A stretch of DNA of 23,594 nt, taken from a virus. This document shows positions 12,281 to 23,594 of this stretch, in pieces (positions within the stretch are counted from its first letter, which is position 1; every line of letters starts with the position of its first letter). Position numbers and translations under genes: made by a program. Where the stretch lies: positions 1 through 23,594 of the IMG/VR virus record IMGVR_UViG_3300034101_001715. One strand, 5' to 3'. The notes below the pieces were generated by a model, which searched no databases, had not been told where the DNA came from, and saw only the letters and a list, made by a program, of their open reading frames with translations.

Positions 12281-12324
12281 AAACACCTCTTAATAATTTA
12301 GTCCGAAACCACTCGAACTGATTC

Positions 12325-12353
12325 CTTATCTACTATTCCAGATTCAAAGTCAA
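12325..12353 (-). promoter_or_regulatory. Candidate leftward promoter
   Basis: On the minus strand TTGACT (12353-12348), 17 bases, then GATAAG (12330-12325), matching 5 of 6 and 4 of 6 of the consensus boxes. It points toward the 101-residue frame and the late block. Confidence 0.45.
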
Positions 12354-12365
12354 ACAACTTTTTTC

Positions 12366-12404
12366 AGAAAAATCCCGCCTTGCAGATTTTTGACCACGGG
12401 CGGG
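12366..12404 (-). terminator. GC-rich hairpin with T tract in the divergent region
   Basis: On the minus strand CCCGCC (12404-12399) pairs with GGCGGG (12379-12374) across a long 19-base loop, followed by ATTTTT. No minus-strand gene lies upstream to be terminated. It may end an untracked small RNA or an antisense transcript, or be incidental. Confidence 0.3.
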
Positions 12405-12564
12405 GCGAGGCGAAAGGTCGGGAAATGAAGCCGATAAACCTGCTAACGGAGATAGATGGTGTGATGTTTTTTTGTTTGTGTCAAAGCAAATAAGTTTTAA
12501 AGAGTGCGTTTTTAGGCAATAAACACGGGCTTTTTTAGTGTGAAAAAATATCTGAAAATAATTG
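12405..12564. other. AT-rich gene-free upstream region of the early operon
   Basis: No supported gene is seen. A minus-strand frame through here looks random. A 22-codon plus-strand frame near 12425 is too short to support. The part after 12460 is very AT-rich, with A and T tracts leading into the early promoter. Confidence 0.4.
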
Positions 12565-12606
12565 TTTACATCCTCAACGGTTGCTGTCATAGTGATTGAC
12601 GTTGAG
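12565..12606 (+). promoter_or_regulatory. Candidate early promoter with inverted repeat operator
   Basis: TTTACA (12565-12570), a 17-base spacer and CATAGT (12588-12593) match the -35 and -10 boxes at 5 of 6 and 4 of 6. The arms CTCAACG (12573-12579) and CGTTGAG (12600-12606) are perfect inverted repeats placed symmetrically around the -10 box and likely start site. A bound dimer there would block the promoter, so this is a plausible operator. Confidence 0.6.
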
Positions 12607-12647
12607 AGGGAGAAGCGAACAAACCAAACCAAATGAAAGGGGAAAAA

Positions 12648-12989
12648 ATGAAAAAAACACTAGTTGAAAGAATAAACGAAGGTTTCGTGACCAAACCAAA
12701 CGACAGAATAACAATAGTTGAACACAAAAACATGATTTGCGACACGATTGACATTGTCCTGTGGAATACCGGAACAACTGAAAAGGAACACACCTGCCTT
12801 CCGAACAATATCAGCGCATGGAAGTGGCTTAAAATGTTCAACGAAATAGGCGGTCGTGCGGTTCTTAAAGAAGTTGACGGCGAATTAATACCGTTTGAAC
12901 AGAGCCTTCCGTATCTTTACAGATTTGACCGTGCCGCATACGAAAAGAAGGGATTGTTCCCCCCGCCAGCCCCCGTACTGCAAAAATAA
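12648..12989 (+). CDS. First early gene, hypothetical (113 aa)
   Basis: Start at ATG 12648 because AAAGGGGA sits 6 bases before it; an ATG 15 bases earlier lies over this site. The product starts MKKTLVERINEGFVTKPNDR, is soluble and mixed alpha/beta, and has two isolated cysteines. It is the first gene after the early promoter, a place often used for host-takeover or anti-defence genes, but no motif supports a function. Confidence 0.6.
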   Translation: MKKTLVERINEGFVTKPNDRITIVEHKNMICDTIDIVLWNTGTTEKEHTCLPNNISAWKWLKMFNEIGGRAVLKEVDGELIPFEQSLPYLYRFDRAAYEKKGLFPPPAPVLQK

Positions 12990-13071
12990 CCCCGAAACTG
13001 GGAGCAATCCCAGTCTGCTGTCCGGCGGTTCCGGCGGCACTGATGAGGGAAACCAAAGGAAAGGAAAGAAG

Positions 13072-13248
13072 ATGGAACAGGAAATTAAATACATCCAGAA
13101 GTTTGCAAAGTGCAACGCTTGTGACTGGGAAGGGTATAGACACGAAACGCATCACAGCGAAAAACGGTTGCCATCATGCCCATGTTGCGGAGCGGCAAAT
13201 CATTTAATAGTCTTTGAAAAAGAAGTTGACGCAAGCGATCAGGAATAA
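13072..13248 (+). CDS. Small zinc-ribbon protein (58 aa)
   Basis: ATG 13072 has AAGGAAAG upstream; longer in-frame starts run through the previous gene. The product has CNAC at about 15-18 and CPCC at about 36-39, a standard four-cysteine zinc ribbon, and an acidic end (EKEVDASDQE). Possible nucleic acid or protein adaptor. It belongs to a set of small zinc proteins in this operon. Confidence 0.65.
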   Translation: MEQEIKYIQKFAKCNACDWEGYRHETHHSEKRLPSCPCCGAANHLIVFEKEVDASDQE

Positions 13249-13271
13249 CCAAACCAAAGGAAAGGGAAAAT

Positions 13272-13493
13272 ATGAAAGAATCTGATATTAAATGGGAAAA
13301 CGAGGCAAGAGGGCTTTGGATCGGGAAAACGAAATACGGGTTTACTCTGTTCAAATCTGGATCAAATCATGCCACAGGGTTCTTGTCTTTTGATCGTCTA
13401 GATGATGCCATAGATAACGCAGAAGCTTTAAAGGATCGGCCGGATGTTTTGGCTAAGCTTTTGCGAGTATATCCAAAAAAGGCCGTCAAATGA
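13272..13493 (+). CDS. Small hypothetical protein (73 aa)
   Basis: ATG 13272 is preceded by the repeated leader with AAAGGGAA. The protein begins MKESDIKWENEARGLWIGKT, with beta-strand patterns and a helical C-terminus ending KKAVK. Its stop overlaps the start of the hydrolase gene (ATGA). Family not recognised. Confidence 0.6.
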   Translation: MKESDIKWENEARGLWIGKTKYGFTLFKSGSNHATGFLSFDRLDDAIDNAEALKDRPDVLAKLLRVYPKKAVK

Positions 13494-13906
13494 AACGCCT
13501 GATTTTGCTTTTTACGCTTTCACAATGCCAACCTTGCCCAGCTGGAATCACGGCTGACACACTTTTTTCGGAATGCCGTGGAGAAAGCAAGGCGGGTAGA
13601 ATGGCGGTTGCTTCCGTCATATTTAACCGTGCAAAGGGGAATCCGGCAAAACTGGAAACAGTTTGCTTAGCTCCAAAGCAATTCTCATGCTGGAACAAGG
13701 GTTACACCAAGCCAAAGCCTAGAAACGCTCAGGAAAGGGCAATTCTGGCGGAATTTGAAGGCATGGAAAAGGCTATGAAAGCCGGAGCATTTAAGCCAAG
13801 CGGGGCCTGGACGCATTATCACACCTTAAAAGTGCGTCCGGCTTGGTCTAAATGGATGAAAAATAGAACGGTAATCGGGAATCATGTTTTCGGGAATACA
13901 AAATAG
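13490..13906 (+). CDS. SleB-type cell-wall hydrolase (lysis enzyme), with N-terminal signal-like segment
   Basis: 138 residues. The catalytic domain begins at about residue 22 with ADTLFSECRGES. The E-x-R-G-E motif gives the likely catalytic Glu28. Then come GRMAVASVIFNRAKGN, QFSCW and a late THYHT, as in the Hydrolase_2/SleB family of lytic transglycosylase-like enzymes. MKRLILLFTL at the N-terminus is basic then hydrophobic, so the enzyme may be exported by Sec instead of needing a holin. It would open the host peptidoglycan for release. It is in the early operon, coupled by ATGA to the gene before, unlike most lysis genes. Confidence 0.8.
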   Translation: MKRLILLFTLSQCQPCPAGITADTLFSECRGESKAGRMAVASVIFNRAKGNPAKLETVCLAPKQFSCWNKGYTKPKPRNAQERAILAEFEGMEKAMKAGAFKPSGAWTHYHTLKVRPAWSKWMKNRTVIGNHVFGNTK

Positions 13907-13919
13907 AAAGGAAATGGAA

Positions 13920-14417
13920 ATGGAAAAGAAAGACTACTTCACGCAATACGAACGCCGTTTTTATGCGGCGCATTATAACACCTCTTTTTCACCAGAAAAG
14001 AGGGCGGCGGCTGATGTTGCGGCGTATAACGAAGAGCTTAATGAAGACCTTGCGGAGCTTGAAACGCTGGGAAGCGTTGGCAATTATGCGGAAAAGTATA
14101 TCGAAAAGGCTTTAGCTTATGCTGATCGCCGGAGCCGTTGCCTTTCGTGGATGATTACAGGGCCAGCGAATTTTCCAGTGGCAAGAAACGAAAAGGCAAA
14201 CCGATCAGCAGATAACGCTTGGAATGAGTTCAGGGAATGGCGAAAGCGGTACATTAAACGAGCCAGCGCAAAGCCTACCCTTTCGCCTGAAGAAGAGATT
14301 GACGAAGCCGCAAAAGAGTTGAGCGAGGCACAGGAAAACCACACAAAACAGAAGGCTTTCAATAAAATTCTGTTTAAAAAAGGCGTTTTCAATCGAAGAA
14401 AAAGCGGCTCAAATTGA
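13920..14417 (+). CDS. N-terminal part of a frame-split phage protein (DUF3560-like)
   Basis: ATG 13920 is preferred, with AGAAAGGA 8 bases upstream. The frame codes 165 residues. It has the segment RCLSWMITGPANFPVARNEKANRS followed by FREWRKRYIKRA, as in a widespread phage/plasmid protein that I associate with DUF3560-type accessory proteins. Near the end the frame leaves the conserved path: after FNKILFKK the real continuation is one base further on, in the frame of the next entry. The tail GVFNRRKSGSN is probably out of frame. With the next entry it makes one protein of about 295 residues. Confidence 0.6.
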   Translation: MEKKDYFTQYERRFYAAHYNTSFSPEKRAAADVAAYNEELNEDLAELETLGSVGNYAEKYIEKALAYADRRSRCLSWMITGPANFPVARNEKANRSADNAWNEFREWRKRYIKRASAKPTLSPEEEIDEAAKELSEAQENHTKQKAFNKILFKKGVFNRRKSGSN

Positions 14418-14808
14418 AGAAGAAACAGGACTTGAAGCGGAAGAGTTTCTTAAAATCGTTTCGGCTGATGCTCCAGAGGTTTTCAGTCTTTGGGGGGCTT
14501 CCGCTTGGAAGGTTCGGGGATTCGGACTTGTAAACAGTAACGCAAAAATTAAGCGGCTAGAGGATAAAATTAAAATAATGCAAATGAGGATTGAACGCAA
14601 GGCCAGCTTTGAACCGATAAAGTTTGAAGGCGGGGAAATCAATATCGAAGCCGACAGAGTAACCATCCGGCATGAATCAAAGCCAGATCAAGTTATTATT
14701 GACAGCCTGAAAAGCCACGGGTTCCGATGGTCTCGAAACTTTGGAAGCTGGAGCCGCAAGCATACAGGAAACGCAATCTATGCGGCGAAGATGATTTGTG
14801 GGGTTTGA
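14376..14808 (+). CDS. C-terminal part of the frame-split protein
   Basis: This frame is open from before 14376 to 14808 and has no good start until an ATG at 14578. Its upstream coding (AFSIEEKAAQIEEETGLE, then VRGFGLVNSNAKIKRLEDK) is clearly protein-like and joins the previous frame by a +1 step at the A6 run 14376-14381. The C-terminus FEGGEINIEADRVTI and LKSHGFRWSRNFGSWSRK with NAIYAAKMI is, as I recall the family, normally part of the same polypeptide as the N-terminal segment. Start given is the shift site, not a start codon. Confidence 0.55.
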
Positions 14809-14840
14809 TAAACAATAAATTAAATAGAAAGGGTAACAAA

Positions 14841-15098
14841 ATGAACATCAAAACAGTTACAGATTACATTGACAAAAACCCATATTTTAGAGCGGCAATC
14901 GTTTCGCACGTTGCCAAGATGAACCGGAAGAAAGCCAAGCCGGAGAATATGCGGAGAAGCTCAGACCATTACGCAAAAATGTCTCTGAAAGGAGTACAGG
15001 CTCGCCGGTCAAAGGCAGACATCGAGGCCGGAATCATTCGGGCGGAGATTTACCAACAGGCAAAAGAAGCTGGTGTAAAACTGGATGGGTTGCTGTGA
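14841..15098 (+). CDS. Small hypothetical protein (85 aa)
   Basis: ATG 14841 follows AGAAAGGG. The product begins MNIKTVTDYIDKNPYFRAA and is very basic in the middle (MNRKKAKPENMRRSS), then helical. A DNA or RNA contact is possible from charge alone. Family not recognised. Confidence 0.6.
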   Translation: MNIKTVTDYIDKNPYFRAAIVSHVAKMNRKKAKPENMRRSSDHYAKMSLKGVQARRSKADIEAGIIRAEIYQQAKEAGVKLDGLL

Positions 15099-15167
15099 AA
15101 GAGCCTCTCAAAAATGAACTGCCGGGCAAGGCTGGTTTTACTGGTAGAAGATTTTAAAAAAAAGTGT

Positions 15168-15195
15168 TTGGCTTTTTCAAAATAGTGTGAATAAT
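15168..15195 (+). promoter_or_regulatory. Candidate internal early promoter
   Basis: TTGGCT (15168-15173), a 16-base spacer and AATAAT (15190-15195) match 4 of 6 and 5 of 6. It lies in the only gap over 100 bp in this part of the operon. Its TAGTGTGAA and ATAATTGT words also occur just upstream of the early promoter at 12536-12566, so the two may share a control site. Confidence 0.45.
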
Positions 15196-15218
15196 TGTCA
15201 GGAAAGAAGGGGGAGAAA

Positions 15219-15560
15219 ATGAACGGAAACTATCCAGCAGGTGTGACAGGTAACGAGGGGCATTTCAATCCAAGCTATGAGGACAAGTGCTGTCAGTGTG
15301 GAGAGATTATCGCAGACACGGAGCATGACCACCACGGGATCAGCCTTGACGGTGAAAAGCGGGTTTGTTCTGGCTGTCTAATGAGTGATGTTGCGAGACT
15401 TGGTTCGATATCAATAAATGATGGGTACTTCGCAACCGCAATTTACGAAGGCGAGGAAGTGCAAAGCGCAATCCTTTCATCTGAGCAAGAGGCTTTGAAA
15501 CGAGCCGCTGAACTCGCAGAATACGCATGGGCTGTTAAGGCTTTTGTTGAGGTGAACTAA
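15219..15560 (+). CDS. Zinc-ribbon-containing protein (113 aa)
   Basis: ATG 15219 has GGGGGAG just upstream. CCQCG (near 24-28) and CSGC (near 50-53) form a zinc ribbon around an HDHHG loop. The rest is a helix-rich tail (SEQEALKRAAELAEYAW). Its stop overlaps the next start (TAATG). Unknown role. Confidence 0.62.
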   Translation: MNGNYPAGVTGNEGHFNPSYEDKCCQCGEIIADTEHDHHGISLDGEKRVCSGCLMSDVARLGSISINDGYFATAIYEGEEVQSAILSSEQEALKRAAELAEYAWAVKAFVEVN

Positions 15561-15772
15561 TGACACAAGCAGAAGAAAAAGAAGCTCTAGAAATCGGCTC
15601 AGTTGTTTTTGCCACTTGGACTGTTGCAGAATCATACGCCAAGCGGATTCTGGCCGGAGAGGATTGGGAGGATATAGCCAAAGAGCTTCACGATATGGTA
15701 GAGGAAATCATCGCAAAAGAAGAATTGGCTGATACCGCACGGCGGGAAGCCTTGAGAGGAGCAAGTGAATGA
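15560..15772 (+). CDS. Small acidic helical protein (70 aa)
   Basis: The start shares one base with the previous stop and its own stop overlaps the next ATG. The protein is almost all helix (EEKEALEIGSVVFATWTVA, then ELHDMVEEIIAKEELADTARRE) and acidic. It has no cysteines. Possible partner-binding protein. Family not recognised. Confidence 0.6.
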   Translation: MTQAEEKEALEIGSVVFATWTVAESYAKRILAGEDWEDIAKELHDMVEEIIAKEELADTARREALRGASE

Positions 15773-16239
15773 GTCTGGCCGTTAAATTGACCGGAATTGC
15801 CCACCACGAAGCGAAGCAGATTCAAGACTGCATTGTCCCGAAGAACGGTGTTAAAATCGTTCGTGAGGCAAACGCAAAGGCTTCTGACGGATTCGCATAC
15901 CGTGCGGACTGCAAGGGTCTTTTGATTGGTTACATCCCAGAGCTTTCGACTCTGCGTAAATACTACTCGGAAGCGTATTCAGAATCAAAACGGCATGAAG
16001 TTTCAGCTTGGGGTTCTGCGGTTAAGGCTTGCCGTGAGCAGTTCAAAATTGATTACGAAATGAACGGCACGGAGTCTTGGAGCGCAAAGGTTTGTGGACT
16101 GCTTTACTCAAAGACGATTGACGGGATTGAGGCTTGGGTAGAGTTCGAGCAGTACAGCGATTTGTGCCAAGCCGGACAGGGCGAAGGATGGAATCTCAGG
16201 CAGATTTCGGTGTTGGTTGATGGGGTGGAGTGCTTCTAA
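15769..16239 (+). CDS. Hypothetical protein with HIRAN-like N-terminus (156 aa)
   Basis: ATG 15769 is coupled by ATGA. The segment from about 7 to 62 (KLTGIAHHEA, then VKIVREANAKASDG, then GLLIGYIPEL) has the beta pattern and the L/I-V-R-E ... G-x-I-P layout of HIRAN domains, which bind DNA ends. The rest has beta strands and a Trp/Cys-containing region. The HIRAN comparison is from memory and weak. Confidence 0.5.
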   Translation: MSLAVKLTGIAHHEAKQIQDCIVPKNGVKIVREANAKASDGFAYRADCKGLLIGYIPELSTLRKYYSEAYSESKRHEVSAWGSAVKACREQFKIDYEMNGTESWSAKVCGLLYSKTIDGIEAWVEFEQYSDLCQAGQGEGWNLRQISVLVDGVECF

Positions 16240-16255
16240 CTAGAAAGGATGAATC

Positions 16256-16363
16256 ATGGACTACGAAGGAATGCTATCAGACTGTTGCGGAGCGGAAATC
16301 ATCTGGGGTGATATTTGCTCGGCGTGCAAAGAACACTGCGAACCACAGGAGAATGAAGAATGA
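16256..16363 (+). CDS. Mini zinc-ribbon protein (35 aa)
   Basis: ATG 16256 follows AGAAAGGA. The product begins MDYEGMLSDCCGAEIIWGD, then CSAC, giving the CC-G-A-E-I ... C-x-x-C-x-E-H-C-E pattern that recurs in very small phage zinc proteins. Its stop overlaps the start of the repeat gene (ATGA). Confidence 0.62.
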   Translation: MDYEGMLSDCCGAEIIWGDICSACKEHCEPQENEE

Positions 16364-16812
16364 AACTAAAAGAACTGAAAAAAATACTGGAAGAAAAAAA
16401 TAATCTCACAGGATACCAGATTAGCTGGCTAACAGGATACCAGATTAGCTGGCTAACAGAATCACAGATTAGATGTCTAACAGGAGACCAGATTAGATGT
16501 CTAACAGAATCCCAGATTAGCTGGCTAACAGAATCCCAGATTAGCTGTCTAACAGGATACCAGATTAGCTGGCTAACAGGATACCAGATTAGCTGGCTAA
16601 CAGAATCACAGATTAGATGTCTAACAGGAGACCAGATTAGATGTCTAACAGAATCCCAGATTAGCTGGCTAACAGAATCCCAGATTAGCTGTCTAACAGG
16701 ATACCAGATTAGATGTCTAACAGGATACCAGATTAGATGTCTAACAGAATCCCAGATTAGCTGGCTAAAAAATCGAATCGAATTTTTATTACAACAGGAG
16801 GTATCATCATGA
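16360..16812 (+). CDS. Octapeptide-repeat protein (150 aa)
   Basis: Residues 1-15 are MKLKELKKILEEKNN. Residues 16-135 are fifteen units of eight residues with consensus L-T-x-x-Q-I-x-x, the variable pairs being GY, ES or GD and SW, RC or SC. Residues 136-150 (LKNRIEFLLQQEVSS) close the array. The even spacing of Leu, Ile and Trp/Cys suggests a solenoid of short helices. The first 20 bases of the gene are almost the same as those of the next gene, so the array may have grown from a copy of that gene's start. Function unknown; not a CRISPR array, since there are no spacers. Confidence 0.7.
   Translation: MKLKELKKILEEKNNLTGYQISWLTGYQISWLTESQIRCLTGDQIRCLTESQISWLTESQISCLTGYQISWLTGYQISWLTESQIRCLTGDQIRCLTESQISWLTESQISCLTGYQIRCLTGYQIRCLTESQISWLKNRIEFLLQQEVSS
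16405..16764 (+). repeat. 15 tandem copies of a 24-bp repeat (coding)
   Basis: Units read CTAACAGGATACCAGATTAG plus four variable bases. Units 1-6 (16405-16548) and 7-12 (16549-16692) are the same in 143 of 144 bases, so a six-unit block was duplicated recently. Units 13-15 follow. Copy number is likely to vary between related phages. Confidence 0.93.
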
Positions 16813-17057
16813 AACTTAAAGAACTGAATTCGTGGAAATTGGCTCTCACAGACCAGCAGTTTCTGGTTCTCAAGCGGATTTTCTGGAGGTCGCAAGGCTT
16901 CCTATGGACTCGCTACCGGAACCTCTTTGAAATCTGCAACAGCCCGTCGAAGAGGGTGTCTGAAATGGTTGAGGCTGGGGTGAAGTTCAAGTATCGGGAT
17001 GTTCAAATCAAAAATTCGACAGGCCGGAAGGTCGTCGTCAGGGAGTTTCAGGTATGA
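16809..17057 (+). CDS. Small hypothetical protein (82 aa)
   Basis: ATG 16809 is coupled by ATGA to the repeat gene. It starts MKLKELNSWKLALTDQQFLV, sharing MKLKEL with the gene before, and LTDQQFLVL resembles one repeat unit. The middle (SPSKRVSEMVEAGVKFKYRDV) looks like a winged helix, such as a small DNA-binding domain. Its stop overlaps the next ATG. Confidence 0.58.
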   Translation: MKLKELNSWKLALTDQQFLVLKRIFWRSQGFLWTRYRNLFEICNSPSKRVSEMVEAGVKFKYRDVQIKNSTGRKVVVREFQV

Positions 17058-17434
17058 TTTGCCAGTGTGGAAAACCAACAGCCGCCCTGTATCAAGGTGT
17101 ATGCAAGGAGTGCTTCGACAGGAAGGCGCCTAGAAAGCCCCAGAAGAAGCGAGGCCGTCCAGCCAGACGCACACCAGAGGAGAAGGCTAAAAAGGTCTTG
17201 GAGTGGCGTTTGGCGCATCCCAGGACGGAGTATTTCAGGGAGCGTGCTAGAAAGCTGTACGGAACGGAGCTTGGAGAGTTTGTTGTAAGGCTTGGTGAGC
17301 TTTATGCACAACGGAATAACAAGCCGAAGTGGGGGAAGCGTTCGACCGCCAAGGTGTACACCTCAAAAGCGTTTGCTTCTTTGTGTGTAAAAAGGCATGA
17401 AGGTTCGGTAATCGAGGAAGTGAAAGGAGAATAA
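17054..17434 (+). CDS. Zinc-finger and AT-hook-like basic protein (126 aa)
   Basis: MICQCGKPTAAL and CKECFDRK give a four-cysteine knuckle, followed by QKKRGRPARR, where R-G-R-P is an AT-hook core, and then helices. It probably contacts DNA. The start is coupled by ATGA. The family is not otherwise recognised. Confidence 0.62.
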   Translation: MICQCGKPTAALYQGVCKECFDRKAPRKPQKKRGRPARRTPEEKAKKVLEWRLAHPRTEYFRERARKLYGTELGEFVVRLGELYAQRNNKPKWGKRSTAKVYTSKAFASLCVKRHEGSVIEEVKGE

Positions 17435-17435
17435 A

Positions 17436-17660
17436 ATGACAGACAACAACAGACCAGTAGAAACAATTCCAGTCGGATTCGTTTACTTCGATGGAAAAAC
17501 TTCCTACGTTCTTTCTCGTGAGCAGGCTAGAAAACACGAAGAGTTTGTTCCGAAAAACGCAAAGCACACGGCAACCGTTGCGCTTGATGTTGTTCTTGAG
17601 CGCATACTGAATAATGAAGATGGTGTGAAAAGCCAGCTTAAGGAGATGCGCACAATATGA
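17436..17660 (+). CDS. Small hypothetical protein (74 aa)
   Basis: ATG 17436 follows AAAGGAGA. It begins MTDNNRPVETIPVGFVYFDG, with a beta hairpin then a helix (SREQARKHEEF). Its stop overlaps the next ATG (ATGA). Family not recognised. Confidence 0.58.
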   Translation: MTDNNRPVETIPVGFVYFDGKTSYVLSREQARKHEEFVPKNAKHTATVALDVVLERILNNEDGVKSQLKEMRTI

Positions 17661-17818
17661 AGGCCTCTGATTGTTGCTCATGCCGATTCTGTATTTCACT
17701 GGTTGGGACACTTCCGGCAACTTGCATGAAAGGACACAAGCCAAGGTTTTACACTCCACGCTCTCCGATTGACCAAGACTATGGATGGAAAAGGGTTTGC
17801 GATGACTACAGAAAGTAA
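17657..17818 (+). CDS. Cysteine-rich small protein (53 aa)
   Basis: Coupled start at 17657. It begins MKASDCCSCRFCISLVGTLP, then TCMKGH, RFYTPRSP and, near the end, KRVCDDY. I have seen this C-C-x-C-x-x-C ... C-x-x-G-H ... Y-W/G-x-K-R-x-C layout in short phage proteins. It probably binds one or two zinc ions. It overlaps the next start by 17 bp. Confidence 0.6.
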   Translation: MKASDCCSCRFCISLVGTLPATCMKGHKPRFYTPRSPIDQDYGWKRVCDDYRK

Positions 17819-18224
17819 AACATGCTCAAAGTGCGGAGAGACTAAGCCGCTGGATGAGTTTGAGACCGACAAACGGCTGAAGTCTGGAAAGAGAGCGGCT
17901 TGCAGACTTTGCAGAAGAAAGCAGAGAAGTGTCCATTATTACATGAACGCAGAAAGGATGCGGCTTGCAAGCAGAGAATATCGGCTTGAGCATTTGATTG
18001 TTAGAAGAAAATCATGCAAGCAGTGGCGTGATGAAAACAGAGACCACTGCTTATCGTACTATAAAGAAGCAAACAAAAGGAATAATGAAGCTTTGCCAGA
18101 TTGCGTAGTTAAGCATCGACTGATTCAAGGAAGAAAATTTTCACCTGAACAAATCACGCCTGAGCTAATTGCGGCAACTCGTGCGCTGATTAAACTAAAA
18201 AGAGCCGTAAAGGAAATACAATGA
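17802..18224 (+). CDS. Zinc-ribbon nuclease-like protein (140 aa)
   Basis: ATG 17802 follows AAAAGGG. CSKCGETKPLDEF and CRLCRRKQR form the ribbon commonly found at the front of phage HNH endonucleases and related proteins, followed by long basic helices. A clear HNH histidine-asparagine-histidine set is not visible, so nuclease activity is not supported. The stop overlaps the next gene by ATGA. Confidence 0.6.
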   Translation: MTTESKTCSKCGETKPLDEFETDKRLKSGKRAACRLCRRKQRSVHYYMNAERMRLASREYRLEHLIVRRKSCKQWRDENRDHCLSYYKEANKRNNEALPDCVVKHRLIQGRKFSPEQITPELIAATRALIKLKRAVKEIQ

Positions 18225-18412
18225 AGAACATAAGAGACCTAGAAATTGAACTGTGTGACGTGTTTGAACAGCTGAAGAAAGACCCGAAGCGTGTTTGTCA
18301 GGCAAAGGAGCTTGCTAACGTGGCCGGAAAACTGATTGGAGCGCAGAAAGTAAGCCTTGACTACGCAACACTTCACGGCAAGAAGCAAACTCTTCCATTC
18401 TTGGAGCGGTGA
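18221..18412 (+). CDS. Widespread small phage protein (63 aa)
   Basis: Starts MKNIRDLEIELCDVFEQLKK and has AKELANVAGKLIGAQKVSLD, then LPFL at the end. This layout, N-x-A-G-K-I/L-I in the centre, Y-A-x-L near the end and P-F-L last, recurs in small phage proteins near replication genes. Function unknown. Confidence 0.65.
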   Translation: MKNIRDLEIELCDVFEQLKKDPKRVCQAKELANVAGKLIGAQKVSLDYATLHGKKQTLPFLER

Positions 18413-18413
18413 T

Positions 18414-18473
18414 ATGAAATGCAAATGCAAAAACAGTATGGGTTGGACAACCGTCCGATACGGAGGTTATTAG
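18414..18473 (+). CDS. Possible 19-aa peptide between genes
   Basis: ATG 18414 has GGAGCGG upstream; the frame MKCKCKNSMGWTTVRYGGY ends at TAG 18471-18473, directly before the next ATG, and holds that gene's GGAGG. It may only be a coupling leader. Low confidence. Confidence 0.32.
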   Translation: MKCKCKNSMGWTTVRYGGY

Positions 18474-18608
18474 ATGAACTACGACCAAATCACTGAGGAA
18501 ATCAAAGACCTGCTTGCCAAGGGGCGGCAGGACTTGGTCAAGGCGGTTCTCATGGAAGTTTATGCGCAGGGGTTGAAGGATGGGAAGGAAATAAGGGAGT
18601 GGAAATGA
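18474..18608 (+). CDS. Small hypothetical protein (44 aa)
   Basis: ATG 18474 follows CGGAGG. It begins MNYDQITEEIKDLLAKGRQD and is one helix-rich acidic/basic protein ending KEIREWK. Its stop overlaps the next ATG. Its last codons are the first copy of a 24-bp direct repeat. Family not recognised. Confidence 0.55.
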   Translation: MNYDQITEEIKDLLAKGRQDLVKAVLMEVYAQGLKDGKEIREWK

Positions 18609-18730
18609 AAGAATTCATATTAAAAAATGGTTCTATAATAAAAATTGAAGGAGAGGATTCTGAAATAAAATCCGGTAAATATCCTATCGGTTACTCGGCT
18701 GTTAATGGAAATAAGGGAGTGGAAATGAAA
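18587..18730 (+). repeat. 24-bp direct repeat pair, 120 bp apart
   Basis: Copies at 18587-18610 and 18707-18730 are identical, with core ATAAGGGAGTGGAAATGAAA. Each holds an ATG. The distance is 40 codons, so frame is kept. Confidence 0.9.
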
Positions 18731-18982
18731 ACACCGTTGACAGGTTCGCCGGATGGTGATAGCTTTGCGGAAATTAACAACGGACAAGAACTGGACACGA
18801 ATATGGTCAATGAACTTAGGAACTATCACGTTAAGAAACTGCTCAATCATTTGGGCGGTGACGCTGTTGCTCCATACCTTCAGAAGGCTATTAAACGGTC
18901 TTATTCTGAGTTCGCAGAGGACGTAACTAAACAAAAGGACATGACACATGGACACAAATCAGACAACATCGGAAATAGCTAA
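18605..18982 (+). CDS. Hypothetical protein (125 aa) with a possible inserted N-terminus
   Basis: ATG 18605 is coupled by ATGA to the preceding gene. Residues 1-40 lie between two copies of a 24-bp repeat. The second copy holds an in-frame ATG at 18725 with the same upstream bases, so the ancestral protein may have started there (MKTPLTGSPDGDSF). The C-terminus (VNELRNYHVKKLLNHLGGD, then AVAPYLQKAIKRSYSEFAED) is helical. It overlaps the initiator gene by 35 bp. Family not recognised. Confidence 0.5.
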   Translation: MKEFILKNGSIIKIEGEDSEIKSGKYPIGYSAVNGNKGVEMKTPLTGSPDGDSFAEINNGQELDTNMVNELRNYHVKKLLNHLGGDAVAPYLQKAIKRSYSEFAEDVTKQKDMTHGHKSDNIGNS

Positions 18983-19808
18983 GCTTGTTAAAGAGCTTAC
19001 AAAACAGCCAATCGCAGTACAACCAATCTACAAAAAGCTTACCGGATCATGGTCAGCGGCAGTTCTTTTGTCTCAGGTAATGTACTGGTACGGAAAGATG
19101 GATCGTGCAATCTACAAGACCGACGAGGAGTTCATGGAAGAGCTTTGCATGACAGAAAAGGAGTTCCGCATAGCCAAAGAGCATTTAAAAAGCGTTCCTT
19201 TTGTTCGTGTGTTCAGGGCTGGGAATCACGGTCAGATGCACTATGAAATTAACTATGAACTATTCGTATCCACAATGAAGCATTGCATAGAAAAGCTGAC
19301 CTGCCCAAATGGGCGTAACGCCCAAAAGGGCATAACGTCTGCCCAAAAGGGCGAAACAGCCCCCCTTCTGATATGCCCAAAAGGGCGGAACTTATATACA
19401 GAGACTAACATATCAGAGAATACAACAGAGACTACAGCGATTGCTTCTGAAAACCAAACTCCAAAGCCCTCTCCAAATTCTCCTAAGGTTAGCATGCCGC
19501 TAAAATATACCGATGACTTCTCGGCGTTTTGGGCGTTGTATGGCATTGGCTCGAAAGCCTGCGCCTTCTCTGCTTGGAAGAAACAGAACCCTTCGGCAGA
19601 AGAACAGGCGGCAATTTTGGCTTGTGTTCCGGTTTATAAAGCCTATTGCGCTTCTGCTGATAGGTCTTTGAAGGACGGACAGGGCTGGCTAAACGGAAGA
19701 TTCTGGGAGAACACATGGACGCACCAAGCCCAGAATACAAAGCCTTCAACAAATCAGAAGCCATTTGAGGCACAGCCCGTGCAGATCAACAGATGCCCAA
19801 GCTTTTAA
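18948..19808 (+). CDS. Phage replication initiator (lambda O-like in role)
   Basis: 286 residues. The N-terminal 110 or so are a winged-helix replication domain (VQPIYKKLTGSWSAAVLLSQ, then VMYWYGKM, TDEEFMEELCMTEKEFR). A polar linker holds four DNA iterons. The C-terminal part has FWALYGIGSKACAFSAWKKQ and QGWLNGRFWENTW, the usual primosome-recruiting end of phage initiators. It would bind the iterons in its own gene and load the helicase coded 900 bp later. The start overlaps the gene before. Confidence 0.82.
   Translation: MDTNQTTSEIAKLVKELTKQPIAVQPIYKKLTGSWSAAVLLSQVMYWYGKMDRAIYKTDEEFMEELCMTEKEFRIAKEHLKSVPFVRVFRAGNHGQMHYEINYELFVSTMKHCIEKLTCPNGRNAQKGITSAQKGETAPLLICPKGRNLYTETNISENTTETTAIASENQTPKPSPNSPKVSMPLKYTDDFSAFWALYGIGSKACAFSAWKKQNPSAEEQAAILACVPVYKAYCASADRSLKDGQGWLNGRFWENTWTHQAQNTKPSTNQKPFEAQPVQINRCPSF
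19303..19386 (+). repeat. Four palindromic iterons, probable replication origin
   Basis: GCCCAAATGGGC at 19303-19314 and GCCCAAAAGGGC at 19320-19331, 19341-19352 and 19375-19386. The 3' flanks also share RNAAC. Copies 1 and 4 are read as C-P-N/K-G, copies 2 and 3 as A-Q-K-G, so the DNA word is kept in two frames. Position inside the initiator gene fits an origin. Confidence 0.8.
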
Positions 19809-19816
19809 GGAACGCT

Positions 19817-19927
19817 ATGACAGACCAATCATCAAGACGATTGCCACCATACAGCGAAGAGGCAGCCATTCTCAAAACAAGAACAACAAAAGATAAACAC
19901 ATTTACATGTTAATCCAGTGCTTTTAA
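19817..19927 (+). pseudogene. Remnant of the dnaB 5' end (36 aa)
   Basis: The frame starts MTDQSSRRLPPYSEEAAIL. Its LPPYSEEA matches the DnaB start (IPPYSEEA), and 21 of 22 bases at 19844-19865 match 20719-20740. After that it has no likeness to DnaB. It is probably the old helicase start, cut off by insertion of the methyltransferase gene. It still has a binding site (AAGGAA) and stop. Confidence 0.55.
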
Positions 19928-19938
19928 GGAATCTAAAA

Positions 19939-20709
19939 ATGGAGATAAAATATGAGTTGGCATTATTCGCAGGAGCCGGAGGTGGAATCCTTGGCGGTAT
20001 CTTATGCGGTCACACTTGCATCGGAGCTGTTGAGATTGAGGAATACCCAAGGAAAGTTCTTCTGGCTAGGCAGAGGGATGGACTCTTGCCAAAGTTCCCA
20101 ATCTGGGATGATGTCACAACCTTCCGGGCAGACAATCCAGAGTGCAGAGAATACATCGAGTTCCTTCGAAGCATCAAAGACGAGCTTGTTATCACCGGAG
20201 GATTCCCATGCCAAGACATTTCCTGTGCAGGAAAAGGAGCAGGAATCACCGGAGAGCGAAGCGGATTGTGGAAAGAGTTTGCCCGCATCATTCGCGAAAT
20301 ACGACCAGCAAGAGTGCTTGTGGAAAACTCACCAATGCTCACTGTTCGGGGGCTTGGAGTCGTTCTCGGAGACTTGGCCTCGATGGGGTATGATGCACGA
20401 TGGGGAGTGCTGGGAGCTGAACACACCAACCTACCTCATAAAAGAGAAAGAATATGGGTGTATGGTTCCAACTGTAACGAAATCAATTTCAAAAGGAGCG
20501 CCAAGGAAAAGGTATTTAGGTTCCCAGGAATACAGAGGGAATCACATAATGGAGTGGTTAAGAATGAATCAGAACTCAGAGCAATACTATCACCCGGACT
20601 TTGCAGAAAATATAATGGGGTGGATAATCAGGTGGACAGACTTGAAGCCATTGGAAACGGACAAGTTCCGGCTGTGGTTAAACTCGCATGGGATATACTT
20701 GGAGACTGA
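19939..20709 (+). CDS. C5-cytosine DNA methyltransferase
   Basis: 256 residues from ATG 19939 (AAGGA 8 bases upstream). It transfers a methyl group from S-adenosylmethionine to cytosine in DNA. Motif I ALFAGAGGG (8-16), motif IV GGFPCQDIS with catalytic Cys91, motif VI VLVEN (126-130; Ser follows instead of the common Val), motif VIII KRERIW (168-173) and motif X RLEAIGNGQVPAVV (234-247) are all present in order. The target-recognition region is short (about 55 residues), so the enzyme is small for the family. It may protect phage DNA from restriction. A second long frame lies over the whole gene. Confidence 0.93.
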   Translation: MEIKYELALFAGAGGGILGGILCGHTCIGAVEIEEYPRKVLLARQRDGLLPKFPIWDDVTTFRADNPECREYIEFLRSIKDELVITGGFPCQDISCAGKGAGITGERSGLWKEFARIIREIRPARVLVENSPMLTVRGLGVVLGDLASMGYDARWGVLGAEHTNLPHKRERIWVYGSNCNEINFKRSAKEKVFRFPGIQRESHNGVVKNESELRAILSPGLCRKYNGVDNQVDRLEAIGNGQVPAVVKLAWDILGD

Positions 20710-20716
20710 CAAATGA
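19952..20716 (+). CDS. Overlapping alternative-frame protein inside the methyltransferase gene (254 aa)
   Basis: This frame (+1 to the methyltransferase) is open for 254 codons. Its ATG has GGAG exactly 7 bases upstream (19941-19944), and its TGA (20714-20716) overlaps the dnaB ATG as ATGA, the junction used by most genes of this operon. The product includes SHAKTFPVQEKEQES, LFGGLESFSETWPRWGMM and, near the end, IRWTDLKPLETDKF. From memory these segments recur in phage proteins found at methyltransferase loci, and several are the shifted reading of conserved methyltransferase motifs. That can mean true dual coding or a long open shadow. Not a methyltransferase itself; function unknown. Confidence 0.5.
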   Translation: MSWHYSQEPEVESLAVSYAVTLASELLRLRNTQGKFFWLGRGMDSCQSSQSGMMSQPSGQTIQSAENTSSSFEASKTSLLSPEDSHAKTFPVQEKEQESPESEADCGKSLPASFAKYDQQECLWKTHQCSLFGGLESFSETWPRWGMMHDGECWELNTPTYLIKEKEYGCMVPTVTKSISKGAPRKRYLGSQEYRGNHIMEWLRMNQNSEQYYHPDFAENIMGWIIRWTDLKPLETDKFRLWLNSHGIYLETDK

Positions 20717-22056
20717 TACCACCATACAGCGAAGAAGCAGAGCGTGGAGTTCTCGGCTCGGCACTGATTGATTCTGACCGTGTAATGGATATGCTCCAAA
20801 CCATGTCCATCACGGAAGATTCTTTCTACATCCCAGCTCACCGCCTTCTGTTCGAAACTCTCTGCGAAATGCACAACGCATCAAAGCGGATTGACCTGCT
20901 GACCGTTGGAGAGGCTTTAAAGACCTCTGGACGGCTTCCAGCATTGGGCGGATATTCGTTTCTCGAAGGACTTATTGATGGAACTCCTACAGCGGCACAC
21001 GCTGAATACTACGCTGAAATCGTAGTCAAGAAGCACAAACTACGCAGAATCATCACTCAGGCGGCAGAAAGCATAGACAAGTGCCAAGCGGACAAAGACC
21101 CAGACGAAATTATCGCAGAGGCTACAAGCGGGCTTTCAGGAATCGAAGTCCGTGAAACCGTTCAGTCAGACGATGATATCATCCGGCATCACGAAGAGGC
21201 TATGCGGGGGAATCCAAACTGCATACCTACCCCTTTCGAGAGTCTTACCCGCAGAACAGGAGGGGTTCGTAGAGGGATGGTAACGGTAATGACCGGACGC
21301 TCAAAGTCTGGAAAGTCCATGCTAAAATCATTCTGGATTCGACAGCTTGCAGAGCAAGGATACCGAGGGGTTGACTTTTGCTTTGAAGATCGCTGGGAAA
21401 TCAGCAAGAAGCGCATAGCTTCCATCGGAAAGTACAGTATCAGCGAGTTGGACGCTGGCGGTCGGTATGTTCTGGACACTTCTACAGGGAAGTTTCATTG
21501 GTTCCCTGTTTTCCAGAACCAGATTGACGAGGAGCGGGAAGCCTTGGCAGAAGTATCCAAGCTACCGATTTGGTTCTTCGACAAAAAGATAACGGCCAAA
21601 CAGCTCCATTCTGTGATTGCAAAGTACAAGCGGCAACATGATATCCAGTACGCTTTCATTGACGGTGCAAAGGATATGAAGCGTCCTTCAGGAAAGTACA
21701 ACGATTGCGGTTTCGAGGAAGAGGTCAGCCAAGCGATGACTGAGATAGCGGCAGAGTTTGACATCGCACTGATTGCAATTCACCACCTTACAAAGATTGA
21801 AGATAAAGACCTGATTACTCCTAACAGTATCCGAGGTAGCGGAAACATTGTTGCAGACAGCCGGTGCGTGTACGCCGTTCAGGGCGACAGAAACGGAGCA
21901 GGGCTTGATAAGTACGGCGACGGGCAACTCTTGGAGAGGGATGAGGAAGGATACGTTACAACGAGGGTTCTGGAGTGCATCGTGAATAACCACGGGCAGT
22001 CTGGAAAGGTGTGGATGGGGACAGATTTGGGCAAGTGCAATTTTTGGAAGGTATAA
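20713..22056 (+). CDS. dnaB: Replicative DNA helicase, DnaB type
   Basis: 447 residues. The N-terminal domain (PPYSEEAERGVLGSALID, RLLFETLCEMH, YAEIVVKKHKLRRI) binds primase and holds the hexamer. The RecA-like motor has Walker A GRSKSGKS (195-202), Walker B YAFID near 313-317, the IAIHHLTK segment (354-361) and the DNA-contact segment RGSGNIVADSRC. It unwinds DNA at the fork, loaded by the initiator upstream. Its original start appears to be partly copied 870 bp upstream. The present ATG lacks a clear binding site of its own and may depend on coupling to the frames before it. Confidence 0.93.
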   Translation: MIPPYSEEAERGVLGSALIDSDRVMDMLQTMSITEDSFYIPAHRLLFETLCEMHNASKRIDLLTVGEALKTSGRLPALGGYSFLEGLIDGTPTAAHAEYYAEIVVKKHKLRRIITQAAESIDKCQADKDPDEIIAEATSGLSGIEVRETVQSDDDIIRHHEEAMRGNPNCIPTPFESLTRRTGGVRRGMVTVMTGRSKSGKSMLKSFWIRQLAEQGYRGVDFCFEDRWEISKKRIASIGKYSISELDAGGRYVLDTSTGKFHWFPVFQNQIDEEREALAEVSKLPIWFFDKKITAKQLHSVIAKYKRQHDIQYAFIDGAKDMKRPSGKYNDCGFEEEVSQAMTEIAAEFDIALIAIHHLTKIEDKDLITPNSIRGSGNIVADSRCVYAVQGDRNGAGLDKYGDGQLLERDEEGYVTTRVLECIVNNHGQSGKVWMGTDLGKCNFWKV

Positions 22057-22070
22057 AACAGGAGAATGAA

Positions 22071-22331
22071 ATGACAGACCAGCAAATAAGACTTGTGTGC
22101 GGCGAGCTTAACGCCGGAGAGATGCGGCTTGCCCGTGCTCTGTGCGGATACTATGAGAGAAATAACTGGAATAAAAAAGAAAAGTTTATGTTTCTTCACA
22201 AGTATTCTGACTGGCTTGCAAAGCATGGGTTTCTTGATAAAGACTGGTGGACACATCAACCAAATGCTGTAACAAGATTCATTGATGAAGATAGTGATAT
22301 TTTTCAAAAAAAAACAGTTGCTTGTTTTTAA
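22071..22331 (+). CDS. Small hypothetical protein (86 aa)
   Basis: ATG 22071 follows CAGGAGA. It begins MTDQQIRLVCGELNAGEMRL and is helical, with WWTHQPNAVTRF near the end. An A9 run at 22308-22316 lies close to the C-terminus and makes the last residues uncertain. Family not recognised. Confidence 0.58.
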   Translation: MTDQQIRLVCGELNAGEMRLARALCGYYERNNWNKKEKFMFLHKYSDWLAKHGFLDKDWWTHQPNAVTRFIDEDSDIFQKKTVACF

Positions 22332-22375
22332 ATAAGCGTGGTATAAACATTCAGTTAAACAAACAGGAGGGGAGT

Positions 22376-22537
22376 ATGGGAAAGGTAAAATCATTGAAGA
22401 AGGCTCAAGTTATGTGGGGTCTGAAGAATAAGCAAAGCGGAGTGATTAATGCGGCGTTTTACTCCCGTAGCGATGCCAGAGAAATCAAGATCATTACAGA
22501 TTCGGTAGTCAAATTGGAAGTAAAGGAGGTTAAATAA
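22376..22537 (+). CDS. Small hypothetical protein (53 aa)
   Basis: ATG 22376 follows CAGGAGGGG. It begins MGKVKSLKKAQVMWGLKNKQ, basic at the start, with a beta/alpha pattern and a C-terminal KLEVKEVK. Its stop overlaps the next start (TAATG). Family not recognised. Confidence 0.58.
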   Translation: MGKVKSLKKAQVMWGLKNKQSGVINAAFYSRSDAREIKIITDSVVKLEVKEVK

Positions 22538-23241
22538 TGAGTAGGCAAGATCAGTTTGTAACAAAAACAAATCCGGCGACCGTCACCATTGAATGGGCTG
22601 GCTCAGGAAGCGATGGGTTCTTTAAATTCTGGAACAAGGAAACAAGGCAGGACGTTCGTATTAACGAGCTTTCTTTTGCAGTCCTTGCAGAGCGCAGTTG
22701 CGTTCGTGGATGGATGGAAGAAAAGAAATCAAATGCTTACAGCAACGAGGTTTCAAGTCTCAAAAATCAAACGCTGACTGTCAAATACTTTCAGGACGGT
22801 AAACCACGTGAGCTTTGTTCTGGAAAGTATGCAGAGCTTCACGACTCGCTTGTATCACAAGGAATCAAATTCAATAAGGTAATCTATGTGATGGTTATCG
22901 AAAGCGATGCTCTTGAATCCGGAACGATTGCCAAGGTCTTGCTAAAAGGTGCGGCATCTGGAGCGTGGATGAACTTCAAAGACAAGCGTTCAGGTGTAAA
23001 GTCCGATGGTTTTTCTGACGGAAAAAAGGGTGCTGTGAAGTACCGTACTCCGAAGTTTTCTTCATTCATGATGGAAGAAGGAGACAACGAAGAAGCTGAA
23101 ATGGCATACGAACAGGTTAAGGCGTACCTTTCAACCGCTCCGGCAACAACGGTTCATGCAGAGCATGATGACGTTCCTGATTATGTGATTGATGAACAAG
23201 AGGATTTGGTTCCTGCTGATGACGATGCTATTCCGTTTTAA
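22537..23241 (+). CDS. Probable single-strand DNA-binding protein
   Basis: 234 residues. The body is beta-rich with an OB-fold-like pattern (VTIEWAGSGSDGFFKFWNK, TLTVKYFQDGKP, KVIYVMVIES). The C-terminal 50 residues are acidic and end in DDDAIPF, close to the SSB tail D-D-x-I-P-F that binds replication partners. AAAGGAGG precedes the start. Its place after the helicase fits. The family is not identified beyond this. Confidence 0.7.
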   Translation: MSRQDQFVTKTNPATVTIEWAGSGSDGFFKFWNKETRQDVRINELSFAVLAERSCVRGWMEEKKSNAYSNEVSSLKNQTLTVKYFQDGKPRELCSGKYAELHDSLVSQGIKFNKVIYVMVIESDALESGTIAKVLLKGAASGAWMNFKDKRSGVKSDGFSDGKKGAVKYRTPKFSSFMMEEGDNEEAEMAYEQVKAYLSTAPATTVHAEHDDVPDYVIDEQEDLVPADDDAIPF

Positions 23242-23315
23242 TCTGTAGGTGAAAGCCGACTCTTAACTAGGCTTGACTGCTGGAGAGACAGCATAAAAAA
23301 CTGACTGGAAAACAA
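23242..23315 (+). other. Leader with two short hairpins
   Basis: AAGCC...GGCTT (about 23253-23274) and TGCTG...CAGCA (about 23278-23293) are followed by TAAAAAA, not T residues. Probably an RNA leader of the next gene or an mRNA end structure; not a standard terminator on this strand. Confidence 0.3.
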
Positions 23316-23594
23316 ATGAAAAAAGTAATGTATCTCATAGTTCCGGCTATCATAGGAATATCATTGTTCTTTATGAATAGAGCAGGAGAGTTGTTCGAGA
23401 CTGAAATGTGCATCAAAACATTAAATGGATGTGTGAATGAACAAGTAGTACAGCAGTCGGCATCAAAGATCAAAAATGATATTAACACAATAGCAGTTCC
23501 ATGCTTTTGGATATTTGCTTTTGTGTGGTATGCGGCGTTTATTGTTAAATCAAAAAAAGGAAAAAAGATGATTAAGAAAGTGTCAGGAATTGTT
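23316..23594 (+). CDS. Membrane protein, runs off right edge
   Basis: The frame is open from ATG 23316 to the window edge (93 codons). It has a signal or first membrane segment (YLIVPAIIGISLFFM), a polar central part with two cysteines (ETEMCIKTLNGCVNE) and a second segment (CFWIFAFVWYAAFIV), then a basic KSKKGKKMIKK. The two segments would make a hairpin, so it could be a holin-type protein, but the end is missing. Confidence 0.5.
   Translation, partial: MKKVMYLIVPAIIGISLFFMNRAGELFETEMCIKTLNGCVNEQVVQQSASKIKNDINTIAVPCFWIFAFVWYAAFIVKSKKGKKMIKKVSGIV

Follow-up and report, generated by a model that had tools for sequence, protein, structure and literature searches.

A tandem octapeptide gene of an uncultured bacteriophage belongs to the ALTTAQ repeat class and has relatives whose arrays may change by block shuffling

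A small phage protein built on fifteen tandem octapeptide units is shown by its Pfam score to belong to the known class PF20080 and not to a new protein class. We regard it as probable, if only just, that the protein is an ALTTAQ-type solenoid carried as an optional passenger, whose array is shuffled in blocks and forms a modular adhesive surface against a component of the host or of a rival phage. The parts of this reading that concern the structure and evolution of the array have good support; the proposed function, that of a modular binding surface directed most likely against a host component, is put forward tentatively, at less than even odds. The repeat type is already known from bacteria, and little has been written on how unrelated phages use it as a module for reshuffling.

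The window, that is, the whole stretch of DNA analyzed, is the IMG/VR record IMGVR_UViG_3300034101_001715 (23,594 bases) from an uncultured bacteriophage. Besides many small genes, its plus-strand half has an endolysin-like gene and genes for a replication initiator, a DNA methyltransferase and a DnaB-like helicase; the terminase lies on the strand opposite to the array gene. Four copies of a partly palindromic 19-nt repeat within the replication initiator gene (19301-19391) are possible origin iterons. Searches of the viral contigs with the genes 15769-16236 and 20713-22053 and the 82-aa gene starting at 16809 found no close relative of the window phage. The array gene and its surroundings comprise the following features:

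16256..16363, plus strand: upstream Cys-rich ORF of 35 aa, with a 4-nt ATGA overlap with the array gene
16360..16812, plus strand: octapeptide-array gene of 150 aa (ORF, Pfam match, AF2 model), with AGGAG at 16347-16351
16360..16404, plus strand: N-terminal cap helix MKLKELKKILEEKNN, 15 residues (AF2 model; similar caps in L007 and L012)
16405..16764, plus strand: 15 tandem 24-nt units, LT[GE][YSD]QI[SR][WC] (TRF, unit count)
16405..16548, plus strand: six-unit block, copy 1 (block comparison)
16549..16692, plus strand: six-unit block, copy 2, with 1 difference in 144 nt (comparison with copy 1)
16765..16809, plus strand: C-terminal cap helix (AF2 model), whose 3' end holds the AGGAGG (16796-16801) of the next gene
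16809..17057, plus strand: downstream 82-aa gene, with a 4-nt ATGA overlap with the array gene and 19 of its first 20 nt identical to the array gene start

A preliminary description of this DNA had reported an ORF of fifteen L-T-x-x-Q-I-x-x units at 16360-16812 and a doubled six-unit block with one difference in 144 bases. Both observations were confirmed: the coordinates are exact, the pattern LTxxQIxx fits 15 of 15 units without indels (six distinct peptides, seven distinct DNA units), and units 1-6 differ from units 7-12 at one of 144 nt. TRF identified a single 24-bp array (16404-16768, 15.2 copies), for which a 72-bp period gives a higher score, and a degenerate three-unit pattern had 13 matches in the window versus none in 100 shuffles. 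Positions 3-4 of the units are GY, ES or GD and positions 7-8 are SW, RC or SC; at position 8 there are seven Trp, eight Cys and, in all 15 units, no Ala. The downstream 82-aa gene has no confident Pfam match and no PHROG family.

The window protein matches PF20080 (ALTTAQ_rpt) with 54.9 bits against a cut-off of 26.4, in six stretches, and the cut-off was passed by all eight other phage records searched, the eighth of which (L045) is a more degenerate array. Among 299 genomes sampled from the phylum of a Candidatus Fokinia MAG, 25 genomes had a match at E 0.001 and 22 scored above the cut-off. The preliminary description knew of no phage family of this kind, a statement that fails both for the protein class, given the match above the cut-off, and for the kind of gene, since bbp36/VR2 and Tweety gp54 are in print. 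No paper on the ALTTAQ-type repeat was found in the open-access literature searched with PF20080 and the unit peptides, nor one on the name HeliScrew, and the word ALTTAQ is absent from the accessible part of an alpha-solenoid review (PMC11514114). NCBIfam and PADLOC gave weak scattered matches only.

The sole clearly related solved chain is PDB 9zem, "HeliScrew4" (E 2.3e-11 with the single sequence, over 102 ungapped residues in register; E 4.5e-28 with profile A2), leucine-rich repeat chains being weaker; 9zem is absent from the Foldseek and VIA match lists, and its likeness rests on sequence alignment. AF2, run on A2 (an alignment of seven sequences), gave a model with pLDDT 91.3 and pTM 0.81, in which helices of five residues each follow one another at an eight-residue spacing (34-38, 42-46, 50-54 etc.), one per unit and 15 in total, although AF2 may over-regularize repeats. 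The protein is thus predicted to be a solenoid or spiral of 15 short helices, so that the short-helix solenoid suggested earlier is supported by the model and by homology to 9zem. Judging from the DSSP register and sequence conservation, Leu1 and Ile6 would form the core, Thr2 and Gln5 would cap the five-residue helix, and positions 3, 4, 7 and 8 would point outward.

Structural comparisons were less specific. Foldseek gave no PDB match at E 0.001 or better; the best viral prediction was an uncharacterized Caudovirales protein (E 2.7e-4, 33% identity). VIA-align placed 23 of 990 chains at Z of at least 5 and none at 8, and even the top value, Z 7.6, is within the chance range for repeats. This top match is a Clostridium difficile phage receptor-binding protein, which would agree with a virion structural or surface protein, such as a receptor-binding or decoy spike. 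We consider such a role improbable, since its Z falls in the chance range just mentioned, no tail domain was found by Pfam in the window protein, and the gene lies on the replication-side strand with the initiator, methyltransferase and DnaB-like helicase, whereas the terminase is encoded on the opposite one.

Open arrays of the same octad type were found in seven other IMG/VR records, representing six phage kinds and containing 11-34 units: L003/L005, L007, L010, L012, L015, and the sisters G003 (L009/L011) and G007 (L016). These homologs were located via peptide-derived patterns. Five of 13 stretches (L004, L006, L008, L013 and L014) matched the patterns and had no array under the regular expression, as did five of a further 13 (L043, L044, L046, L047 and L048). 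Among 26 genome stretches the script flagged L028, L029, L030, L032 and L042, and of these, L042 being read in part, clear long arrays were seen only in L029 and L032, both from one Fokinia MAG. The latter two contain clustered, diverged, very large ALTTAQ-repeat proteins, with frames up to 1,168 aa. The A1 search of genome contigs yielded no relative and tblastn of the window protein against 50,697 phage records no match, while tblastn against plasmids yielded 47 records, all with less than 60% identity and mostly rhizobial.

Two groups of tblastn matches were rejected as homologs: the bbp36 VR2 gene, the sole match of L007, which has another octapeptide unit, and 20 Vibrio records matched by L015, 12 of which were fetched and had no QI-type array. 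The six of these 12 that were read out contain perfect 24-bp repeats reading LSPAHIRR. In Vibrio Mardecavirus (e.g. L060:3001-3204) such perfect tandem repeats lie upstream of an HNH gene and are mostly unannotated as coding on that strand; several GenBank records start or stop within the array.

To judge whether the window array is coding or a mere DNA repeat, substitution patterns were compared between phages. For the window and L003 arrays, pS is 1.10 and pN 0.20 in the coding frame, versus 0.19-0.61 and 0.32-0.45, respectively, in the five other frames, and pN/pS is below one in 20 of 21 array pairs. As the homologs were found by peptide-derived patterns, pN is biased downward, and more weight belongs to the saturated pS and to the difference between the frames. 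The unit LTGYQISW is common to the window and L003 and differs at six of 24 nt, all synonymous, with one window unit carrying one more synonymous change set aside; more generally, the nucleotide units diverge widely among arrays and the framework residues do not. At the sequence level these data show a real coding array, with an open frame under protein-level constraint across phages. The preliminary description would have taken arrays broken by stops in relatives, and a lack of open homologs, as the mark of a non-selected repeat; open homologs do exist.

A purely DNA-level element, i.e. an iteron or origin in which the ORF is incidental, is highly improbable. It has an apparent precedent in the Vibrio Mardecavirus repeats, which read LSPAHIRR by accident and have no matching annotated gene on that strand in most records, but between the window and L003 it is the peptide of the units that is conserved, not their DNA, as LTGYQISW illustrates, and the likelier iterons of the window are those at 19301-19391.

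In every one of the seven arrays L1, Q5 and I6 vary little or not at all (L007 being the loosest), and most variety falls at positions 3-4 and 7-8, with Trp among the position-8 residues throughout. Such a pattern could be expected of a modular nucleic-acid or peptide reader, each unit of which would touch a single element of a linear polymer, with the two variable pairs as its code, as in TALE or designed armadillo proteins, and the weak fold matches do include designed armadillo peptide binders. Those matches, however, are uninformative at Z 5-6, and the array carries a net negative charge in the window (-3), L003 (-11) and L012 (-11), if a positive one in L007 (+11) and L010 (+5); a reader of this sort is distinctly unlikely. 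Two further signals were rejected. Positive selection within arrays was suggested by pN/pS above one in four of seven, but pS is zero in two and 0.59 in L003, and independent changes are apparently too few. A three-unit periodicity of the outer residues, as of a superhelical turn, appeared at lag 3 in L012 (p 0.013) and L015 (p 0.030), values uncorrected for many tests; the window (p 0.31 and 0.66) and the other arrays have none.

Within the young arrays (window, L010, L012, L015 and L016) pS is 0-0.07, and with almost no synonymous variation recent expansion explains most of the array. The same fact could speak for a neutral or selfish in-frame 24-bp repeat, grown by slippage and merely tolerated, as could the comparable gene bbp36, reported as non-essential in the available part of PMC2884959. 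We give this explanation some weight but consider it unlikely, because the framework residues are the same in seven arrays despite high synonymous divergence between phages, the signal between the window and L003 is restricted to the coding frame, and the window gene has caps at both ends, operon-tight overlaps and a score above the Pfam cut-off.

The preliminary description also raised variable copy number, and this was seen in one pair of related phage records, G007 (14 units) and G003 (34 units). With 13,908 bp of one flank and 1,132 bp of the other 100% identical, they represent the same phage. With the four unit types lettered, the G007 array reads ABCCBCCCBDCACC, whereas one end of G003 has ABCCBCCCBDADAACAADABBADDACC and its other end CCCBDCACC (lacking one base of the first C); the two ends overlap by 50 nt and, joined on paper, give 34 units. 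G007 equals G003 minus one in-frame run of 20 units, whose last five units, CCCBD, are the same as those before the junction. One phage seen twice, with identical flanks and arrays differing by one in-frame 20-unit block, is a new observation. This is the pattern that a single event of recombination or slippage would leave; a collapsed assembly could look the same, both records being metagenome assemblies, which can collapse or break repeats, and the ends of G003 falling inside the array.

The neighborhoods of the relatives suggest how the gene is carried. In L003, the 26-unit array gene is flanked by polA and a 162-aa gene, beyond which come a DNA-binding-like and a recA-like gene (names that rest on sequence reading and on the gene order annotated in LysYB1). 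The order polA, small gene, DNA-binding gene and recA recurs in Lysinibacillus phage LysYB1, where the gap between polA and the small gene holds two other short ORFs and no annotated array gene, so the array gene appears to be optional. In L003 (4882-5796) a 105-bp leader with the start is duplicated (92%) before the array gene and the 162-aa gene, flanking the array gene; a true adjacent leader duplication thus exists in this phage, and an array gene beside polA with its leader duplicated is new. In L010 an exonuclease-like gene adjoins the array gene, and in G003/G007 a pentapeptide gene does.

The proteins of L010, L011/L016 and L015 end in a common domain (TWHTCETTHC-type), which matches phrog_31265, a family of unknown function, and has no confident Pfam family for the parts searched; its fold prediction reached pLDDT 55. 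The same domain follows pentapeptides in the Bordetella plasmid protein WP_306230003.1 (L057:1538-2767), and since it follows both, the two kinds of repeat, which are unrelated, appear able to stand in for each other ahead of it. Also new are array proteins with a C-terminal domain that, on a Bordetella plasmid, is joined to pentapeptide repeats instead.

The near-identical starts of the array gene and the next gene had been taken as a sign of birth by local duplication. The likeness is real: the first 20 nt at 16360 and 16809 match at 19 positions. Of the 325 pairs formed by 26 listed start positions, a few of them inexact start codons, the runner-up has 14 matches, and the mean is 7.3. It is, however, one of five direct repeats (at least 19 nt, at most one mismatch) found in 12300-23594 outside the array, versus none in 20 Markov controls:

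18585/18705, 19844/20719, 17425/22060, 16360/16809 and 12622/13247: direct repeats of 20-26 nt (scan of 12300-23594)

By our reading, each has at least one copy at or just before a gene start, and the genes of one pair are 4.6 kb apart. Since sharing of start regions is general in this phage, the shared start by itself is no proof that the array gene was born from its neighbor, and that origin is weakened; translation start regions have perhaps been exchanged recurrently among early genes. In the pair 19844/20719, a 22-nt copy (19844-19865, one mismatch) of the DnaB-like helicase start (20719-20740) precedes the methyltransferase gene (19918-20709); the arrangement looks like an insertion of the methyltransferase that duplicated the start of the helicase.

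In summary, we propose that the array gene encodes an ALTTAQ-type short-helix solenoid and would be carried as an optional passenger in the early region of phage genomes, on their replication side. The array may grow, shrink and be reordered in frame via recombination or slippage between identical multi-unit blocks, because of which the outer residues would change by the shuffling of ready-made units rather than by point mutation. Most likely it would form a modular adhesive surface whose intracellular partner, bound and probably neutralized by it, is a component of the host or of a rival phage; the length and order of the array would be adjusted to that partner. A more speculative extension, which we consider quite unlikely in full, is that phages use exchangeable octapeptide (ALTTAQ-type) or pentapeptide solenoid cartridges as unit-shuffling recognition modules, block recombination tracking a changing intracellular host target, e.g. 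a defense protein, without point mutation; each unit would then present two outer residue pairs from a small alphabet (GY/ES/GD with SW/RC/SC here, PD/RA with GW/GG in G003). Three things offer a handle for tests: 9zem as a solved relative, natural variants that differ in length between identical flanks, and one C-terminal domain on two repeat types. With these, arrays can be expressed, swapped and tested against phage-defense systems, and should they prove to be modular binders, very small repeat scaffolds could be taken from them ready-made.

Several known systems resemble the array. The TALE repeat is a two-helix repeat of 33-35 residues with two variable residues, while the window unit has eight residues and a single helix; the leucine-rich repeat has a unit LxxLxLxxN of 20-30 residues, while the window period is eight, with helices only in the model. 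Pentapeptide-repeat proteins, with five-residue beta-helical repeats, are likewise encoded by array genes in the same phages (G003/G007), and the one on the Bordetella plasmid has the TWHTCETTHC domain of L010/L011/L016; the window array, in contrast, is eight-residue and helical and its protein lacks this C-terminal domain, PF00805 is absent from its Pfam matches, and it has a period of eight instead of the five-residue A(D/N)LxX. Like 9zem, the window protein has in-register eight-residue repeats, as compared by sequence alignment, but 9zem is Ala-rich.

Tandem-array accessory genes of phages have been noted since VR2, with no function assigned in the accessible part of PMC2884959. According to that part, the VR2 array in bbp36 of Bordetella phages has 24-bp units in 9-20 copies depending on the isolate, is non-essential and has no link to tropism (PMC2884959); in the sequence records its annotated length is 330 bp in BPP-1 and 498 bp in BMP-1. 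It resembles the window array in unit length, and bbp36 lies near cI, but its unit is GTATAGYR/GTATAGES behind another N-terminal domain, making it a separate sequence family. The same portion of the source describes tetra/octapeptide arrays in mycobacteriophages Tweety (gp54), Che8 (gp57) and PMC (gp51), with 48, 26 and 15 tetrapeptides, respectively; variation is limited to two positions, with Gly, Trp or Gln at one, the gene is absent from Llij, and for gp54 the variation at set positions is called "consistent with selection for variation" (PMC2884959). Their unit, however, has an invariant Ala-Ala and is not ALTTAQ.

PF20080 itself shares with the window protein the eight-residue period L-[T/S]-x-x-Q-[I/V]-x-x, present in 15 of 15 units. 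Ala before Leu, a trait read off the family name ALTTAQ, occurs in none of the 15, position 8 being Trp or Cys instead; since the curated criterion of the family is the score, we take the absence of Ala as a subfamily trait. The window protein is also small (150 aa); the bacterial frames that match run to thousands of residues. As judged from its sequence, the window gene is a phage variant of a known repeat family, with Trp or Cys at position 8 and a small single-module product.
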